This document shows positions 4,849-47,787 of a DNA stretch of 47,937 bases, piece after piece. The stretch is from contig JAAVYR010000017.1 of assembly GCA_022791255.1 (NCBI GenBank), forward strand, positions 1-47,937, read 5' to 3'. Positions within the stretch are counted from its first letter, which is position 1. Each line of letters begins with the position of its first letter. The DNA is from Peptococcaceae bacterium (GTDB lineage: Bacteria; Bacillota; Dehalobacteriia; UBA4068; JAAVYR01). Both the position numbers and the translations under genes were made by a program. The notes under the pieces were generated by a model. It saw nothing but the letters and a program-made list of their open reading frames with translations, was not told where the DNA came from and ran no database searches.

Positions 4849-5165
4849 AGTAAAATCCTCCTTTTTTCTCAAAACACCTATTTATATTTATTCTCTTACA
4901 GCTTATAGCATTCCGCTTATAAGAACAGCTTGTCCGTTAAACCAAATAAGTATGTCGCTTAGATGTTTTCGCATAAGACAAGCCGCAAAATAAATATAAA
5001 TATCTTTCATTGTTTATCATTAATTATCAATTGTTTCGACGAAATACTCGCCGTTCTTCATATTATATATTATTTTTTTTTATTTATCAACTATTTCCCT
5101 TCGATATTCAAACAAAACCAGAGATTTTTTCTAGACAAACATCACCTACTAAAAATGTTCCTTGC
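4849..5165. other. Intergenic region upstream of PFOR
   Basis: An AT-rich spacer of about 300 bases that must hold the PFOR promoter on the minus strand. A motif close to a direct repeat, GCTTATA, occurs twice at about 4900-4922, but I could not settle on a convincing -35/-10 pair or a Rex-type palindrome. No coding potential is seen. Confidence 0.5.
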
Positions 5166-5441
5166 CTACACCGTAAAGAAATATTTCAGAGCAATGAGTA
5201 ATAATACACCAGGCAGCCCCAAAATACCAGTGGTAAATAAAGTAAACAGATTGATAGGCAGCGCCATGCCAGTAATGGCAGCAAAGCTGTTAAAGAAAAT
5301 CATACCGCCTACTCCCAGCACCAGGTTTACCCCCAGCCGCACCAGAGAGAAAAACGCCTTTAATCCATTGCGCAACGCCACCGCAAGTAACACAAGACCG
5401 AAACAGCCCAAGCCAAAATACAACAACATTTCCTGGTTCAT
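5166..5441 (-). CDS. bofA: BofA-like small membrane protein
   Basis: A 91-residue hydrophobic protein with three membrane segments at about residues 5-23, 33-57 and 62-88. Length, hydrophobic pattern and place downstream of recR fit the BofA family. In Bacillus, BofA holds the SpoIVFB protease inactive until the signal to process pro-sigma-K arrives in the mother cell. Here the usual recR-bofA linkage is kept, but about 800 bases of repeats and terminators separate the two genes, so they are no longer co-transcribed. The start ATG at 5441 has AAAGGGG just upstream. No other sporulation gene is in the window, so whether it acts in sporulation or is a leftover cannot be judged. Assignment rests on the hydropathy pattern and gene order, not on a catalytic motif. 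Confidence 0.72.
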   Translation of the reverse strand: MNQEMLLYFGLGCFGLVLLAVALRNGLKAFFSLVRLGVNLVLGVGGMIFFNSFAAITGMALPINLFTLFTTGILGLPGVLLLIALKYFFTV

Positions 5442-5552
5442 CTCATCGCCCCTTTATTTCATAGACTTTTTCTGTTTGGTCTATCTCTATGCAACGAGCC
5501 CTCAGCATATGCCTATTTTTTCCGCGCCCTATCATACCAGGCACCCCATCTC

Positions 5553-5585
5553 TGTCATCCTAAGGAGTGTAACGACGAAGGATCT
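5553..5585. repeat. R-family palindromic repeat
   Basis: One copy of the short R palindrome: left arm GTCATCCT, right arm GAAGGATCT, with a diverged middle. It abuts the hairpin at 5587-5628. Confidence 0.75.
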
Positions 5586-5586
5586 A

Positions 5587-5628
5587 AAAAAGCCAAAGAA
5601 CACTTTTCATTTTGTTCCTTGGCTTTTT
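5587..5628. terminator. Bidirectional hairpin terminator upstream of bofA
   Basis: A 16-bp stem with one G-U pair (5587-5602 with 5613-5628), with A-runs and T-runs on either side so it could work in both directions. There is no gene immediately before it on either strand; it may stop read-through from recR or from the large foldback. Confidence 0.65.
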
Positions 5629-5706
5629 ATCATCTTTTTTAATGCAAAAGATACAAAATAATATCTGCTTTTTACAGAGATAAACGATAAATCAATTTAA
5701 AATACA

Positions 5707-6130
5707 GGTTCTACCTCTGACAGTTGTGCAGTTACAATAAGATACCTTGGGCTCGCTTTGCCAGTTCTTTTAAGAAAAGAACCAAAAACGCAATCTGGTT
5801 GCCTTTGCCTGGCAGCCTCGTCACCACCTATCTCTCCCCGCGGCAAACAGATTGCCTTCCCCGACAAAATAGCCAAAAGATCCTTCGCTTCGCTCAGGAT
5901 GACAATCAGAAGTACAGACTACCTCTCCATGTCATCCTGAGGGGCATTGGCCCCGAAGGATCTTTAATACTATTGCGGGGAGCCGCCGCCTGTTTGACGC
6001 GGGGAACGGCAAGTGGTGACGAGGCTGCTACTAGGTCAACCAGGCGGCAGTTTTGCTTCTTTTTCTAAAAGAAGTTAAAGACCTACCCAAAGAAACTTAC
6101 AGCATTTGCCCAACTGTAAAAAGTAGAACC
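5707..6130. repeat. 425-bp foldback element between recR and bofA
   Basis: A large imperfect inverted repeat centred on about 5919. Matched arms are 5707-5726 with 6111-6130 (four mismatches in 20), 5812-5827 with 6013-6028 (perfect 16 bp), 5838-5850 with 5990-6002 (one mismatch), and two R palindromes in opposite orientation at the tip (5878-5904 with 5930-5964). All four pairs share the same centre, so the whole segment can fold into one long hairpin. No protein is supported: overlapping open frames on the plus strand follow the repeat and lack ribosome sites. It resembles a non-autonomous foldback (MITE-like) element; the class is an inference. Confidence 0.78.
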
Positions 6131-6200
6131 CATATTGTTAAATAGTTACTCCTTCCTCCAGAGGTACTAAGTATTTCTTTTGTACAGCGTGGCACTATCT
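6131..6200. repeat. Partial M-family repeat
   Basis: The right half of an M unit: it matches the ends of other copies from the CAGAGGTAC segment through TACAGCGTGGCACTAT. The left half is missing or replaced by the adjoining foldback element. Confidence 0.6.
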
Positions 6201-6237
6201 AAAAAGGACCTGCATTTTTATTTGCAAGTCCTTTTTT
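6201..6237 (-). terminator. Terminator of the dnaX-ybaB-recR operon
   Basis: A 13-14-bp stem (AAAAGGACTTGCA on the minus strand with one G-U pair), followed by a T-run. It lies 10 bases beyond the recR stop codon. Confidence 0.85.
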
Positions 6238-6246
6238 AATACGATT

Positions 6247-6849
6247 TTATAATTCCCGCCTGCCCCAGAAAGCCCGGGAAAGAGTAGCTTCATCTGCATA
6301 TTCCAGATCGCCCCCTACCGGGATACCGTGGGCAATTCTCGTCACCTTGATGCCCAGTGGCTTAATGAGCCGGGAGAGATAAAGCACCGTGGCGTCCCCT
6401 TCTACACTGGGGTTTGTAGCCATGACCACTTCTTGGATACCCCCTTCTTTCAGCCGCTTCATGAGCATGTCGATGGTCAGCTGCTCCGGACCGATGCCCT
6501 CCATAGGAGAGATAGCCCCATGGAGCACATGGTATCGCCCGTGAAATTCTCTGGTGTTTTCCAACATGACCACATCTTTAGGCTGCTCCACCACACAGAG
6601 GATGGTCTCATCACGAGTTTGGTCCTTACACACCATACAAGTGTCCTCATCGCTTAAGTTGCCGCATATCTTGCAGTGACGGATTTTCTGCCGCGCCTCT
6701 ACGATGGCGCCGCCCAGCCCACAAGCATCCTGTTCCGGCGCCGCAAGCAGGAAGAAAGCCAGCCGCTGAGCAGATTTTGGTCCCACACCCGGCAGCTTCA
6801 TCAGGTAGTTGATTAAGTTGGTCATAGAAGGGGGGTAATGATAATTCAT
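6247..6849 (-). CDS. recR: Recombination mediator protein RecR
   Basis: RecR works with RecF and RecO to load RecA on gapped DNA. The 200-residue length is standard. Visible features are an N-terminal helix-hairpin-helix (LPGVGPKSAQRLAF, near 19-32), a four-cysteine zinc site (C59, C62, C71, C74) and a Toprim domain from about residue 80 to 175 with VVEQPKDV and a C-terminal GIPVGGDLEYAD segment. The start ATG at 6849 follows the ybaB stop codon by three bases, and its ribosome site GGAGGA lies within the end of ybaB, so translation is probably coupled. It is the last gene of the dnaX-ybaB-recR operon. Confidence 0.97.
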   Translation of the reverse strand: MNYHYPPSMTNLINYLMKLPGVGPKSAQRLAFFLLAAPEQDACGLGGAIVEARQKIRHCKICGNLSDEDTCMVCKDQTRDETILCVVEQPKDVVMLENTREFHGRYHVLHGAISPMEGIGPEQLTIDMLMKRLKEGGIQEVVMATNPSVEGDATVLYLSRLIKPLGIKVTRIAHGIPVGGDLEYADEATLSRAFWGRREL

Positions 6850-6852
6850 GGT

Positions 6853-7173
6853 TTAAAACATTCCTCCAGGCATTTTCATCCCACCAGTGATTTTCTGCAT
6901 TTCACCAGCAGCTAATTCCTGAGATAAGCGCAAAGCTTCTTTGACAGCAGCCAGCACCATGTCTTCTAACATTTCCACATCTTCCGGGTCTACAATTTCC
7001 GGATTGATTTTGATAGAGAGGATATCTTGCTTGCCATTGGCTACCGCTTGCACCATACCACCGCCAGCAGCAGCTTCTACTGTCATGTCCACCAAATCCT
7101 CTTGTAGTTTTGCCATATCAGCCTGCATTTTTTGTGCCTGCTTCATTAACTTTTGCATGTTTCCGAAACCCAT
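6853..7173 (-). CDS. ybaB: YbaB/EbfC family nucleoid-associated protein
   Basis: A 106-residue DNA-binding protein that coats the nucleoid as a dimer. The N-terminal stretch MGFGNMQKLMKQAQKMQADMA followed by an amphipathic helix, the central VEAAAGGGMVQAVANGK beta hairpin and the C-terminal helices are typical of the family. Position between dnaX and recR is the conserved bacterial arrangement. The start ATG at 7173 is preceded by AAGGAGGA. About 110 bases separate it from dnaX and no promoter is evident there. Confidence 0.95.
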   Translation of the reverse strand: MGFGNMQKLMKQAQKMQADMAKLQEDLVDMTVEAAAGGGMVQAVANGKQDILSIKINPEIVDPEDVEMLEDMVLAAVKEALRLSQELAAGEMQKITGGMKMPGGMF

Positions 7174-7282
7174 TTTTCGTCCTCCTTATTTTCACCCATA
7201 CACTATTTATTTTCTGTTATCTATCATATACCGAAATGGCTTATCCGGTCAAAGCTTTTCATCTTATTCTCAGAAAATATTT

Positions 7283-9220
7283 TTAGTCGTCAAATTCTTC
7301 CACTTCTAACCCATCAAAAGCCTGACTCCAGTCCGGTCCATCGTCTTCTTCCGGTTCCGAGGTAAAGCCGGGGTCTATCGCCTTTTCCTTATGTTTCGGC
7401 GCACCCCAGGGCGCTTCCCCACCCTCATCAGCAGTAAGAGGCGGCTCCTCTGGTGGCAGCCAGTCATCCGGCAGCGCCGTATCTGCTTGCTCCTGATGAG
7501 AAACAGCGGCTATGCTCCCCTCTAGGCCACATTGCACCGTAAGCCCCGTGCCAAATAGCTGCGCCAAGATAGCCTCTACCTTTTCCTTATGTTTCGGCTG
7601 CAGCATCGCTTCCATGTGGATTTTGTATTTATCAGAAAAAGATAACCACAATACCCCATCTGCCAGTGCAGCCACTGTCCCCTCCCGCAAGAAAGCATAG
7701 GTCGTCACTTGCTGTTTTCGCACTTCCGTTAAGATGTTTTGCCACTGGGCCTTGACGGTTTCTAGTGTTACCGCACCACCAGGTACAACAGACGGCTTTG
7801 ATTGGGCTGGCTTTTCCGCTTTCACAGCAGCTTTCGCCACTGGTTTTACTGCCTGTTTTGCAGCACCAAATGGAGCCTCATCCGCTCCACCCCAAGGCAC
7901 ATCTTCTTCCACCCAGTTAGCCTTTGCAGCTGGTTCTTTTTTAGGAGCAGTCTTTGGTCCCGGTTTTGCCGGTGCCGCTGTTTCCCACGGTGGCAATTCT
8001 TCCTTTGCAGGTGTAGCTGGTTGTTTTACAAGAGGAGCCGGTTTTTCTGCCCCCACTGCATCTACTGGTCCCGCTGGCCCTACTGGTCCTACCGGGGCGG
8101 CAGCTTTCGCTGCAGATACAGCCGCCGATGCTGCAGATACAGCTTCTGCTTGCGGCATAGCAGCCTTTAGTAAAGATAGTTCTAAAACGATACGAGGCTG
8201 CACTGCATTACGCAACCGATAATCTACTTCCCCTAACATCTGCATGAGAGATAGGATAACCCCATTATCCGGCAAAGCCCCCTGCTGCAAGGCTCTGTCC
8301 ACAGCAGCATTTTTCTGGCTATCCGGCATGAGCTGGAACAAAGCTAAGCTGCGAAAATGCTCTAATAAGTCCTGTAAAAACTGACGCAAATCTTTCCCCT
8401 GACTGACCAGCTGTTCAATGCCTTCCAGGATAAAAGATAGGTTTTGCTGATACAGTGCTGCTGCCATCCCCGCAATAAAATCACCATCCATAGCGCCCAA
8501 GACCATGGCTACTGTCTCTGCCGTGACCTCATCAGGAGCAAAGCTCACACATTGGTCCAGGAGGCTCATCGCGTCCCTGAGTCCCCCTTCTGCCTTTTTA
8601 GCGATAGCTTCCACCGCTTCTTGGGTAATAGCAATATGCTCTTTTTCCGCTACCTCTTTTAGCCGCAAAGAAATATCCACCAGGCTAATGCGGCGAAAGT
8701 CGAAGCGCTGACAGCGAGAAAGGACCGTCAAAGGAATTTTATGAGCTTCCGTCGTCGCTAAGATAAAAATAACATGGGCAGGCGGTTCTTCCAATGTCTT
8801 TAGCAGCGCATTAAATGCCTCGTTGGTCAACATATGAACTTCATCGATAATGTACACTTTGAATTTTTCCTGAGCCGGCGCATAGCGTACCCGCTCCCGC
8901 AAATCCCGAATTTCATCAATGCCCCGATTAGAAGCAGCGTCGATTTCCATAATATCCAGAGATTGCCCTTCTTTAATACGTTTGCAGGCTTCACACTCTC
9001 CGCAAGGTTCGCCGTTTTGTAAATGCAAGCAGTTTACCGCTTGTGCCAAGATTTTTGCCGTACTGGTTTTCCCAGTGCCCCGCGGTCCACAAAAAAGATA
9101 GGCATGGACGATACGCCCTGTCTCTAGCGCATGCTGTAGCGTTTTACTGATGTGAGCCTGCCCCACCAACTCCCGAAAGTCCCCAGGACGAAATTTCCGA
9201 TATAGCGCCGTATAACTCAT
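7283..9220 (-). CDS. dnaX: DNA polymerase III subunits gamma/tau
   Basis: ATPase of the clamp loader that opens the sliding clamp and, as tau, ties the loader to the polymerase. The 645 residues hold an AAA+ core with Walker A GPRGTGKT at 45-52, a zinc site (C64, C73, C76, C79), Walker B IIDEVH around 124-129 and an SRC arginine finger near 168. From about 360 to 490 there is a low-complexity Ala/Pro/Lys linker, followed by a C-terminal domain expected to contact the polymerase. The start ATG at 9220 has AAAGGGG upstream. A run of six A in the linker (7937-7942) is not in the frame needed for the classical A_AAA_AAG shift, so I see no clear sign of a separate gamma product. Confidence 0.96.
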   Translation of the reverse strand: MSYTALYRKFRPGDFRELVGQAHISKTLQHALETGRIVHAYLFCGPRGTGKTSTAKILAQAVNCLHLQNGEPCGECEACKRIKEGQSLDIMEIDAASNRGIDEIRDLRERVRYAPAQEKFKVYIIDEVHMLTNEAFNALLKTLEEPPAHVIFILATTEAHKIPLTVLSRCQRFDFRRISLVDISLRLKEVAEKEHIAITQEAVEAIAKKAEGGLRDAMSLLDQCVSFAPDEVTAETVAMVLGAMDGDFIAGMAAALYQQNLSFILEGIEQLVSQGKDLRQFLQDLLEHFRSLALFQLMPDSQKNAAVDRALQQGALPDNGVILSLMQMLGEVDYRLRNAVQPRIVLELSLLKAAMPQAEAVSAASAAVSAAKAAAPVGPVGPAGPVDAVGAEKPAPLVKQPATPAKEELPPWETAAPAKPGPKTAPKKEPAAKANWVEEDVPWGGADEAPFGAAKQAVKPVAKAAVKAEKPAQSKPSVVPGGAVTLETVKAQWQNILTEVRKQQVTTYAFLREGTVAALADGVLWLSFSDKYKIHMEAMLQPKHKEKVEAILAQLFGTGLTVQCGLEGSIAAVSHQEQADTALPDDWLPPEEPPLTADEGGEAPWGAPKHKEKAIDPGFTSEPEEDDGPDWSQAFDGLEVEEFDD

Positions 9221-32543: not shown

Positions 32544-32909
32544 TTTTCTCACCTCCTTTCCCTATATTTCATGACAAGACCACTCCGCCCTGTCGTCCTC
32601 AGCATAACTTTTTTGTCATCCTGAGCTTTAGCAAAGGATCTTGGATAATGCCACACATTACAAAAAACTTACTTTCTACCACTAACAGTTATCATCCACC
32701 TATCAGAGGTACCCAGTATTTCTCTCGAACTTCGTGGCAGTATCTGTGGCATAACATGTCATCCTGAGCGCCAGCGAAGGATCTTATAGCATGCCACACT
32801 CTATAAAAGCACTACTTTCTACTATCTCCAATCACTTACCCATCTGTCAAAGGCAGTAAGTATATCTCTCTTACTTCGTGGCACTTATTCGTGGCACCCT
32901 CCAAGGATC
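32544..32909. repeat. Two M-R composite repeats between protease and scaffold
   Basis: A first set has an R unit (32614-32642), an M unit (32643-32755) and another R unit (32757-32785). A second M unit (32786-32896) ends in a shortened R arm that runs to the stop codon of the protease gene at 32910. The element interrupts a pair of genes that form one polypeptide or touch in PBSX-like relatives. Confidence 0.8.
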
Positions 32910-39735: not shown

Positions 39736-39925
39736 TCGTGGATACTGCCACACATGACAAAAGCATTTTATACTACTATCGGATGTTGCTGCATATTACG
39801 AAAGCATTACATACTACTCCCGCCAATTACTTTTCACCCTGTCAGAAGTACTCAGTGTTTCCCATGTACAGCGTGGCACTATCCGTGGCACCATCTGTCA
39901 TCCTGAGCGCCAGCGAAGGATCTTT
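39736..39925. repeat. M-R composite repeat
   Basis: An M unit with the left arm duplicated, as in the copy at 31487-31644, ending in GCGTGGCACTATCCGTGGCACC and joined to an R unit (39896-39924). A decayed M half lies just before it (39648-39735). The 39601-39966 spacer holds no gene. Confidence 0.8.
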
Positions 39926-39966
39926 TTCCGGATAGGTTTACCATCTGCATACACCATACAAGATAC

Positions 39967-41682: not shown

Positions 41683-41949
41683 GGATACTGCCACATATTA
41701 CGAAAGCATTTTATACTACTACCGACAATTACTTTTTCCTCTGTCAGAAGTACTCAGTGTTTCTCAGGTACACCGTGGCAATACTTGTCATCCTGAGGGG
41801 CATTTGCCCCGAAGGATCTTATATCATGCTACCCCCTATAAAAAACTACTTTCTACTACTGACAATCACTTGCCCCTCTGTCAGATGTAATCAGTATTTC
41901 TCTCATACCCTGTGGCACTATCTATCCTGAGCGAATGCGAAGGATCTTT
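41683..41949. repeat. Two M-R composite repeats between putP and clpC
   Basis: M unit 41683-41785 with R unit 41786-41820 (CATCCTG ... GGGGCATTTGCCCC ... GAAGGATC, with an extra inner GC stem), then M unit 41821-41920 with R unit 41921-41949. The intergenic region 41593-41956 is otherwise empty. Confidence 0.82.
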
Positions 41950-45749: not shown

Positions 45750-46271
45750 TTATGCATCTCCCTTCGCTGCTGTTTCCTGTAAGGACTTGATTTCATCTCG
45801 CAGTTTCGCCGCCAGTTCAAAGTTTTCCACTGCTACAGCCTGCTGCAGCTGTTCCTTTAATGCGTCTACCTGCCGTTCTATCCCTTTTACCCCAGCAAGT
45901 CGTTTTGGCAGCTTTCCTGTATGCTGTTCACTGCCCTGCACCCGCCTTAAGATACCCTTTAATTGGGACTGAAATTCTTCATAGCAACGACTACAGCCAA
46001 AACGCCCACCCTTTGCAAATTCCTGAAAAGAAAGATGGCATTGTGGGCAACATACATTGCCAGTTTCCCGGGCCAAGTCTTCCTGCCCCAGAGAAAAGAT
46101 AGTAGGCCAAAGATTTTGCAGGGAAAAGTTATGGTCAAAGGGCATTGTTATATTTAAATGGCCATCTTGTTCCGCACAATTGGGACAAAGGTTTTTCACC
46201 GTTTTATCTCCATTAATAATGGTTGTCACACATACGGTTGCAGTATTCTTTTTACATTTTTCACAAAGCAT
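45750..46271 (-). CDS. mcsA: McsA, zinc-binding activator of McsB
   Basis: A 173-residue protein with two pairs of CxxC zinc sites in the N-terminal half (CEKC, CPNC, CPQC, CSRC) and a C-terminal UVR domain (residues about 133-170) that contacts McsB or ClpC. The chosen start, ATG at 46271, has AGAGGG eight bases upstream and gives an N-terminus MLCEKC like that of Bacillus McsA; the in-frame GTG at 46280 lies inside the ribosome site region. Confidence 0.95.
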   Translation of the reverse strand: MLCEKCKKNTATVCVTTIINGDKTVKNLCPNCAEQDGHLNITMPFDHNFSLQNLWPTIFSLGQEDLARETGNVCCPQCHLSFQEFAKGGRFGCSRCYEEFQSQLKGILRRVQGSEQHTGKLPKRLAGVKGIERQVDALKEQLQQAVAVENFELAAKLRDEIKSLQETAAKGDA

Positions 46272-46294
46272 ATTCTCCACCCTCTCTTCGGCTA

Positions 46295-46798
46295 TTAAAA
46301 ATCTGTTCTTAATAGGTTAACCAAAACTGCATGCAGCATACGGCCCCGCAGAATTTCTTCTAAGTCCTGACCAGTCTGCTTTTCTTCTATAGGCATAGAC
46401 TCACGCAGTTCCCGAAAAATATTACCATTAATCATTGCCTTGATAAAACTACCTTCCCGTGCAGTTAGGAGCTCTTCTTCTACCAGCCGGTCAATGAGAC
46501 CTTCTCCATTTTTTTGAGATACCTGCTTTCCTTCTGCACGGTTCACCATAGCCAGCAGGTTCTCACTTCCCTCTACCGATAGCTTAATGATACGTACAAA
46601 TCCACCGCCGCCCCGTCTACTTTCCACTAAATATCCCTGTTGATTAGAAAACCTGGTTTCTAATACATAGTTGATTTGAGAAGGTACACACATAAAGAGC
46701 CCCGCCATTTCCGACCGGCGAATATCAATAAACCCCTCATCACTTTGATCTATCATTTGTTTAATGTAGTTTTCTATTTGTTTTGCTAATGTTGTCAT
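46295..46798 (-). CDS. ctsR: CtsR, repressor of class III stress genes
   Basis: A 167-residue repressor with an N-terminal winged helix-turn-helix (FIDIRRSEMAGLFMCVPSQINYVLETRF) and the glycine-rich loop ESRRGGGGFVRI, the tip that senses heat in relatives. ATG at 46798 has AAAGGA nine bases upstream. As the first gene of the operon it probably represses itself through the operator at 46829-46853. Confidence 0.95.
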   Translation of the reverse strand: MTTLAKQIENYIKQMIDQSDEGFIDIRRSEMAGLFMCVPSQINYVLETRFSNQQGYLVESRRGGGGFVRIIKLSVEGSENLLAMVNRAEGKQVSQKNGEGLIDRLVEEELLTAREGSFIKAMINGNIFRELRESMPIEEKQTGQDLEEILRGRMLHAVLVNLLRTDF

Positions 46799-46992: not shown

Positions 46993-47631
46993 TTAGTTTG
47001 TTTTTTTGATGGGATGTCTTATCACAGTTTTTAATTTACCCGCGTCACATTTTCTCGGGTCGCTGAGATATATTTCATGATGTAACCTTGTATCCGTAAT
47101 ATCTAATTCATAACCGTTTTCTGTCGCATACCGATGCATCGCGTCAACAGTTCCAGGCTCCTCATCATAGCTGCCGATATGCATACATTGCACGCATAGC
47201 CCCTCGTCATAAGTAAAAAATTCCACTCTGGAAAAATCCTGTTTTTTCTTTTTGGTTGCTTCCTCTATGGCCCATGTAAAGTCAGGCTCCGTCACAAAAT
47301 CCGGTAGTCTAATGACCGATATAAAATGCATTGCCTCCTTATTCTGATAATCAATCGTTCCCGTTTTTCCCTCTTGCCACCAAAACCCTTCCAAAGGAGG
47401 AACAACATACTCAAAAAAACCATCTATTTTGTAGCTTCCTTTATAACTCATTTTTATTGTATAAGCCACCCCATATAATAAACCAATTGTATTTTGATAA
47501 TCTCCACTTTCCTCATTGGGATTACCCATGCCCCTAATTGACAGATAATTCATTTTCGGGATTTCAATAATACCAGGTTTATTCTTTGGCAGATAAAATT
47601 CCTTATATTCTTTCTTATAGTCAAAAGCCAT
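46993..47631 (-). CDS. GyrI-like small-molecule-binding protein
   Basis: A 212-residue protein of the GyrI-like (SOUL/AraC-effector) family. Features are an N-terminal helix then PKMNYLSIRGMGNP, the GLLYGVAYTIKM repeat half, and a C-terminal VEFFTYDEGLCVQCMHIGSYDEEPGTVDAMHRYATENGY second half. Such proteins bind small hydrophobic ligands; the exact role is unknown. ATG at 47631 is preferred, because the longer frame starts inside the upstream terminator hairpin. Confidence 0.85.
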   Translation of the reverse strand: MAFDYKKEYKEFYLPKNKPGIIEIPKMNYLSIRGMGNPNEESGDYQNTIGLLYGVAYTIKMSYKGSYKIDGFFEYVVPPLEGFWWQEGKTGTIDYQNKEAMHFISVIRLPDFVTEPDFTWAIEEATKKKKQDFSRVEFFTYDEGLCVQCMHIGSYDEEPGTVDAMHRYATENGYELDITDTRLHHEIYLSDPRKCDAGKLKTVIRHPIKKTN

Positions 47632-47673
47632 AGTTTCATTTACTCTCTTTCTATTATCTTTTGCTAGATAAAA

Positions 47674-47704
47674 TAAAAAAGCGCCCTGTGAAAAATCACA
47701 GGGC
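47674..47704 (-). terminator. Terminator of the rRNA-tRNA transcript
   Basis: A 9-bp GC-rich stem (47683-47691 with 47696-47704) followed by GCTTTTTTATTTT on the minus strand. It lies just behind tRNA-Asn and ends the rRNA operon. Confidence 0.9.
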
Positions 47705-47712
47705 AAAAAGTT

Positions 47713-47787
47713 TGGCTCCCCGAGTGGGACTCGAACCTACAACAACTCGGTTAACAGCCGAGTGCTCTACCATTGAGCTATCGGGGA
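47713..47787 (-). tRNA. tRNA-Asn (anticodon GTT)
   Basis: A 75-base cloverleaf on the minus strand: acceptor TCCCCGA with TCGGGGA, D-stem GCTC, anticodon loop CTGTTAA with GTT, T-arm GTAGGTTCGAGTCCCAC and an encoded CCA end. It sits between 5S rRNA and the terminator. Confidence 0.97.

Follow-up and report, generated by a model that had tools for sequence, protein, structure and literature searches.

A structured inverted-repeat family between recR and bofA of a Peptococcaceae bacterium, found beside small regulator genes

The window, by which we mean the whole stretch of 47,937 nucleotides analysed, carries bofA (5166-5441) and recR (6247-6849) on its minus strand, and a series of repeated parts lies between the two genes. 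On the bofA side these begin with an REP-like palindrome, R (5554-5584, minus strand), and with a terminator plus the 3' end, now degenerate, of an HTH_26 regulator gene (5586-5661, plus strand), a relic recognised by alignment with loci L037, L095 and L040 (78% over 116 bp for L095). A structured repeat unit of about 155 nt, the AL arm, follows on the plus strand (5708-5866; 161.8 bits with covariance model R1, arm HMM match at 5711-5862). Its outer end is at 5708, its inner end is CCTTCCCCG, and it contains hairpins H1 (GTTCTTTTAAGAAAAGAAC, 5764-5782, plus strand; helices 2-3 of alignment A2) and H2 (GCAATCTG...CAGATTGC, 5790-5855, plus strand; helices 4-5 of A2). Two further R units in opposite orientation (5879-5903, plus strand, and 5931-5962, minus strand) enclose a 27-base spacer s (5904-5930), delimited by sequence comparison. 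Beyond them the second arm class, AR, lies on the minus strand (5974-6129; 164.3 bits with R1) with its own H2 (GCCGCCTG...CAGGCGGC, 5985-6048), compensatory to that of AL, and H1 (CTTCTTTTTCTAAAAGAAG, 6056-6074), both on the minus strand and identified from sequence and alignments. The tail at 6130-6200, consisting of spacer c and about 50 bp, is common to a copy on contig C20, with which the block 5713-6200 aligns over 501 bases at 83%. A terminator-like hairpin downstream of recR (6196-6241, minus strand; inverted repeat I5) completes the locus. Its sequence (AAGGACTTGCA...TGCAAGTCCTT) is repeated elsewhere in the genus, after unrelated genes (L042, L070, L092) and often adjoining AR arms.

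The segment 5695-6143 folds back on itself around a centre near 5919. Three inverted repeats, I1 (5812-5850/5990-6028, 85%), I4 (5893-5914/5920-5941) and I7 (5876-5887/5954-5965), all have their centre at 5917-5921, and the left and right arms could be aligned end to end over the entire segment with about 68-70% identity. The initial annotation had described a hairpin of more than 200 bp per arm, with four concentric pairs of arms between 5707 and 6130 and two opposed R units at the tip. The hairpin, its centre and its tip were all recovered and I1, I4 and I7 are concentric, but the outermost pair (5653-5677/6114-6138) is centred elsewhere and pairing extends slightly past both limits. Energy folding, a check that had been proposed there, gave an RNA minimum free energy of -201.6 kcal/mol for the foldback versus -116.2 +/- 5.5 for shuffled sequences (z -15.6), and the whole-element fold is very stable whichever strand is folded. 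An Rfam search of window positions 4900-7300 returned no match near the gathering score.

Each arm also has a conserved fold of its own, which the initial annotation had missed: an outer end of about CTACCTCTGACAGTTGGGCAAG is followed by a GGG/CCC closing stem that encloses H1 and H2. The two classes, AL and AR, are kept across three species, and the H2 stem GCAATCTG/CAGATTGC of AL and its AR equivalent GCCGCCTG/CAGGCGGC form a clean compensatory series. Over 55 arms, 97.7% of the cells were paired and 10 of 20 pairs showed changes on both sides, in an alignment that was fitted to the covariance model and is biased toward it; the free alignment A1 agrees. Cells with changes on both sides numbered 117, against 40 in shuffles, and control structures slid by 1-3 columns were only 40-52% paired. 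In H2, made up of helices 4-5 of A2, both sides have changed in 8 pairs. Template switching, too, can give rise to compensatory changes in short stems, without selection. The covariation reflects a single-strand fold that is maintained by selection or by template switching in a repeat with no known transposase, a question that CGTC-type REPs and many MITE-like families also pose.

The loops are less constant than the stems. Some copies keep the H2 stem but carry a longer sequence in place of its loop, and this second-type loop occurs in one or both arms of L037, L040, L041, L042, L043, L044 and L072. The second-type loops of paired arms are homologous in the inverted sense. A short arm form without H2 also occurs. 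One AL arm, at L034 (2248-2354; own genome, contig C23), no longer has its H2 loop; the loss lies between two short direct repeats (TTGCCTT), which is consistent with slipped replication across the hairpin.

The R palindrome bears the tag TGTCATCC in most copies and CGTCAT in some. Its stem comprises ATCCT/AGGAT with G-A mismatches and a variable inner stem, and no CCA tail was seen by eye. R units such as that at window 5931-5962 retain ATCCT/AGGAT, with the G-A mismatches on one strand, but are free in the length and sequence of their inner hairpin, a pattern that suggests a strand-specific fold. R-s-R dimers with facing tags were found in the window and at L031, L033, L034, L037 and L041; at L031 the spacer s is inverted relative to the arms. 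Many own-genome matches to the segment consist of R alone, which is far more widespread than the arms: it was found exactly in 24 viral contigs and also in genomes of other families and orders. More R-like palindromes were noted in the window at 1243-1274, 32613-32642, 32757-32785, 39896-39926, 41786-41820 and 41924-41949. Among the papers searched, none was found with the R sequence or DUF6809.

Long matches to the segment occur at about 14 other places in the own genome (1.56 Mb in 24 contigs). The covariance model gave 31 arm matches there, 13 in one sister species and 10 in another; these are minimum values, as contigs of the draft assemblies end inside repeats (C14 within one copy). A search for further copies had been suggested in the initial annotation, which held that their absence, with no conserved pairing in relatives, would favour a chance rearrangement of repeats; both copies and conserved pairing exist. 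Two weak covariance-model matches in the window (46249-46352 and 47605-47715) were taken as chance. The same model gave no convincing match, and one marginal one, in 32 other genomes of the order, and a scan of about 85,000 named species for the arm motif returned only the MAGs of the two sister species, one labelled uncultured Clostridia and the other uncultured Peptococcaceae, besides one hit (L083) rejected as a chance match inside a coding gene. The arm motif was not found in viral contigs, nor the whole foldback in phages and plasmids. As judged from these searches, the family is confined to one genus of gut bacteria and is newly seen.

Most arms occur as inverted pairs, and the commonest arrangement, seen in most places, is AR-c-AL, in which spacer c is constant at 26-28 bases. 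This is the opposite of the arrangement AL-R-s-R-AR, found in the window and at a few other loci and the only one covered by the initial annotation. Single arms exist too, mainly in the sister species.

The arms lie close to small regulator genes, which had likewise escaped notice. Of the 15 own-genome arm clusters, 11 have a small HTH or DUF6809 gene no more than 500 bp away; random placement put a mean of 0.53 clusters near a regulator and reached at least 11 in none of 50,000 draws. The corresponding count for R-only loci was 3 of 22. Over three species a regulator is near the arms at 22 of 28 loci, the regulators having been chosen by eye and ten of them checked against Pfam. They belong to the HTH_3/HTH_26, DUF6809 and ribbon-helix-helix families. 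All ten regulators less than 70 bp from an arm face it with their 3' end, which is only suggestive because promoters need room upstream, and several elements are found in front of regulators or in the space between divergent genes. The association could reflect common insertion hot spots and not a working link. Identical or near-identical DUF6809 genes were seen at L039 (2465-2764), L043 (2364-2663) and L045 (2168-2467), two of them 31 bp from an arm.

Comparison of loci between species showed how the islands change. Several loci are occupied in two species (L034/L067, L036/L069, L040/L073 and L037/L078). Arms of these shared loci do not pair by locus and own-genome arms group together; they were therefore copied or homogenised after the species split. 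The block at L035, framed by two direct R copies, measures about 1.2 kb and contains AR-c-AL, a ribbon-helix-helix-like gene and two HTH genes; it is absent in sister species G002, where a single R is left, and the L037 block is likewise absent there. The more distant sister species by flank identity, G001, has arms at both sites, so that loss is the simpler reading of both absences. A 514-bp unit with R at both edges is common to L037 and L041, and an 812-bp regulator-gene block ending at R is found at bofA in G002 and at another locus in the own genome. In G002 the flanks of two own-genome islands, L040 and L031, are joined (L073), and islands therefore coincide with rearrangement points. 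At L035, L037 and L041 the junctions, with R at their edges, showed no target-site duplication, and no empty site that was clean for the arms alone was seen. Arms were not seen around a transposase or long gene, occurring in short pairs or singly. Four tyrosine recombinases are encoded in the own genome, all on contigs without arms, and none was found beside arms.

The history of the window copy can be read in the same way. The initial annotation had stated that recR and bofA adjoin in related genomes. This holds for seven other genomes of the order, but the two genes are apart in G002, and the contig of G001 stops directly after recR, so that neither offers a clean empty site for the window copy. 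The R unit, the terminator and the HTH_26 relic separate bofA from the foldback, and the relic aligns with intact genes in L037, in L040 and beside bofA in G002. Going by the adjacency in seven genomes and by the relic, an island probably entered an ancestral recR-bofA junction; its gene would then have decayed here, and in G002 the gene order was broken. The window foldback would be a decayed copy from which the regulator was deleted and the foldback kept, a view we hold as part of, and no more firmly than, the overall explanation that follows.

These islands are built from the 155-nt arm unit, the head-to-head REP-like R pair, shared terminators and solo HTH, ribbon-helix-helix or DUF6809 genes, and at several loci blocks have been copied, moved and lost with edges at R. 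We read the arms and R units as a MITE-like repeat family of regulator islands whose mode of spread is unproven. The explanation that we favour, with somewhat more confidence than doubt, is that structured, non-coding inverted repeats specific to this genus make up the repeat portion of small regulator islands, and that they are spread and shuffled mainly by repeat recombination. Recombination and gene conversion between the many copies of R and arms would be the most likely mechanism, keeping copies alike within a species while shuffling genes between them, and would probably start where long hairpins on single-stranded DNA stall replication. The arm fold may be kept because selection acts on a single strand, whether this is DNA or the 3' UTR of the attached regulator. 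Against this explanation, the lack of target-site duplications at the junctions inspected leaves the exact mobile unit undefined, AR-c-AL and AL-RsR-AR compete as the basic unit, and both G002 absences look like loss, G001 being occupied. By linking a structured repeat to orphan regulator genes that spread and are lost, the family offers a testable example of the way in which genes of this kind may be shuffled in gut bacteria.

The initial annotation had offered three guesses, a large MITE, a putative cruciform-forming locus and a putative source of long double-stranded RNA. The first came closest: the family is dispersed, non-coding, inverted and homogenised within a species. A true MITE family would be non-autonomous, with ends (R or the outer ACCTCTGACAG) that are or were recognised by a transposase acting in trans. 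We regard this as possible but rather unlikely. Inverted ends, a length of about 500 bp or less, multiple copies alike within a species and the near-identical unit with sharp edges at two unrelated loci (L037 and L041) argue for it; the junctions read bear no target duplication, no larger element was found with arms flanking a transposase, a search for a Y1 transposase was empty, two alternative arrangements exist, and the edges fall on R, which occurs also alone and in dimers.

More doubtful is the proposal that the arms are cis-acting RNA, serving as terminators or 3' UTR structures by which solo-regulator mRNA, and here that of recR-bofA, is stabilised or processed, for example as an RNase III substrate. 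The strongly covarying internal fold, the stability of the whole-element fold and the 3'-end orientation of the ten nearest regulators all accord with such a role. However, the wobble and mismatch counts (GU 17, CA 11) hardly favour either strand and give no clear sign of an RNA-specific one, the elements upstream of regulators or between divergent genes do not fit, and recR in the window already has a separate terminator. Less probable still is an undescribed cassette system in which the structured arm pairs would serve as sites of recognition or exchange, so that solo HTH, ribbon-helix-helix and DUF6809 genes move from one place in the chromosome to another and a putative recombinase reads the fold as single-stranded DNA. 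A chance gathering of repeats, R among them, at the window locus, for which it might be said that R alone is common and widespread, is refuted by the same arm pairs in conserved arrangements at about 15 own-genome loci and in two other species. An equally negligible probability attaches to a protein-coding role, since the open frames (114 aa through the window foldback, 82-87 aa across other copies) differ in frame and in peptide over the same arm (L035, L037) and are shifted by loop indels among arm copies.

The R unit can be compared with the CGTC-tagged REPs of Di Nocera et al. 2013 (PMC3733652). As defined in the part of that paper used here, these have a CGTC, TGTC or CCTC tag at one end, an 8-9 bp stem, a 4-5 nt loop and a CCA-like tail; they are mostly head-to-head dimers without a dedicated transposase and are placed in five phyla, Firmicutes not being among those given there. 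By that description R is similar in its TGTC tag (a stated variant), its short stem opening with AT, its tag-to-tag dimers and the absence of a PF01797 transposase. It differs in that it forms only the tip of an element, has G-A mismatches in its stem and varies widely in its loops; for the arms, that part of the paper describes nothing similar. R matches a CGTC-type REP in tag, dimers and lack of transposase, and not clearly in stem and tail. A search of the own genome, whose assembly is about 97% complete, for a RAYT (Y1/HUH) gene with PF01797 gave no match, control genomes being positive, which sets the family apart from the REPIN/RAYT system.

Like bacterial MITEs (PMC10969869), of which Nezha and EFAR are named in the same part of PMC3733652, the family is short (<600 bp), non-coding, intergenic, multi-copy, dispersed and inverted. 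Both arms and R units are inverted, with two alternative outer ends. Unlike those MITEs, it has a conserved internal arm fold and regulator genes close by; a target duplication was not seen at the junctions read, and neither the Y1 search nor the positions of the arms revealed a parent transposase. Comparison by description only places it near two other groups. The bcr repeats of the Bacillus cereus group (PMC6542083) are similarly group-restricted, mostly chromosomal, 100-400 bp long and mobile in their traits with no clear transposase, but here the arms are paired in inverted orientation and accompanied by R dimers. Stem-loop sequence families of bacterial genomes, as presented in the portion of PMC2267715 drawn on, are also dispersed, foldable repeats found by systematic search, but the present family is confined to one uncultured genus. 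An integron cassette array (an integrase with a one-orientation array of genes and attC sites) was considered and rejected, the tyrosine recombinases being on arm-free contigs and the arms scattered inverted pairs.

The family may also explain why assemblies of these genomes break and why synteny is lost in them. Foldback repeats probably cause such breaks and are hence undercounted. In the own genome a contig end (C14:25534) and a contig start (near C2:92) lie in or beside foldback copies.
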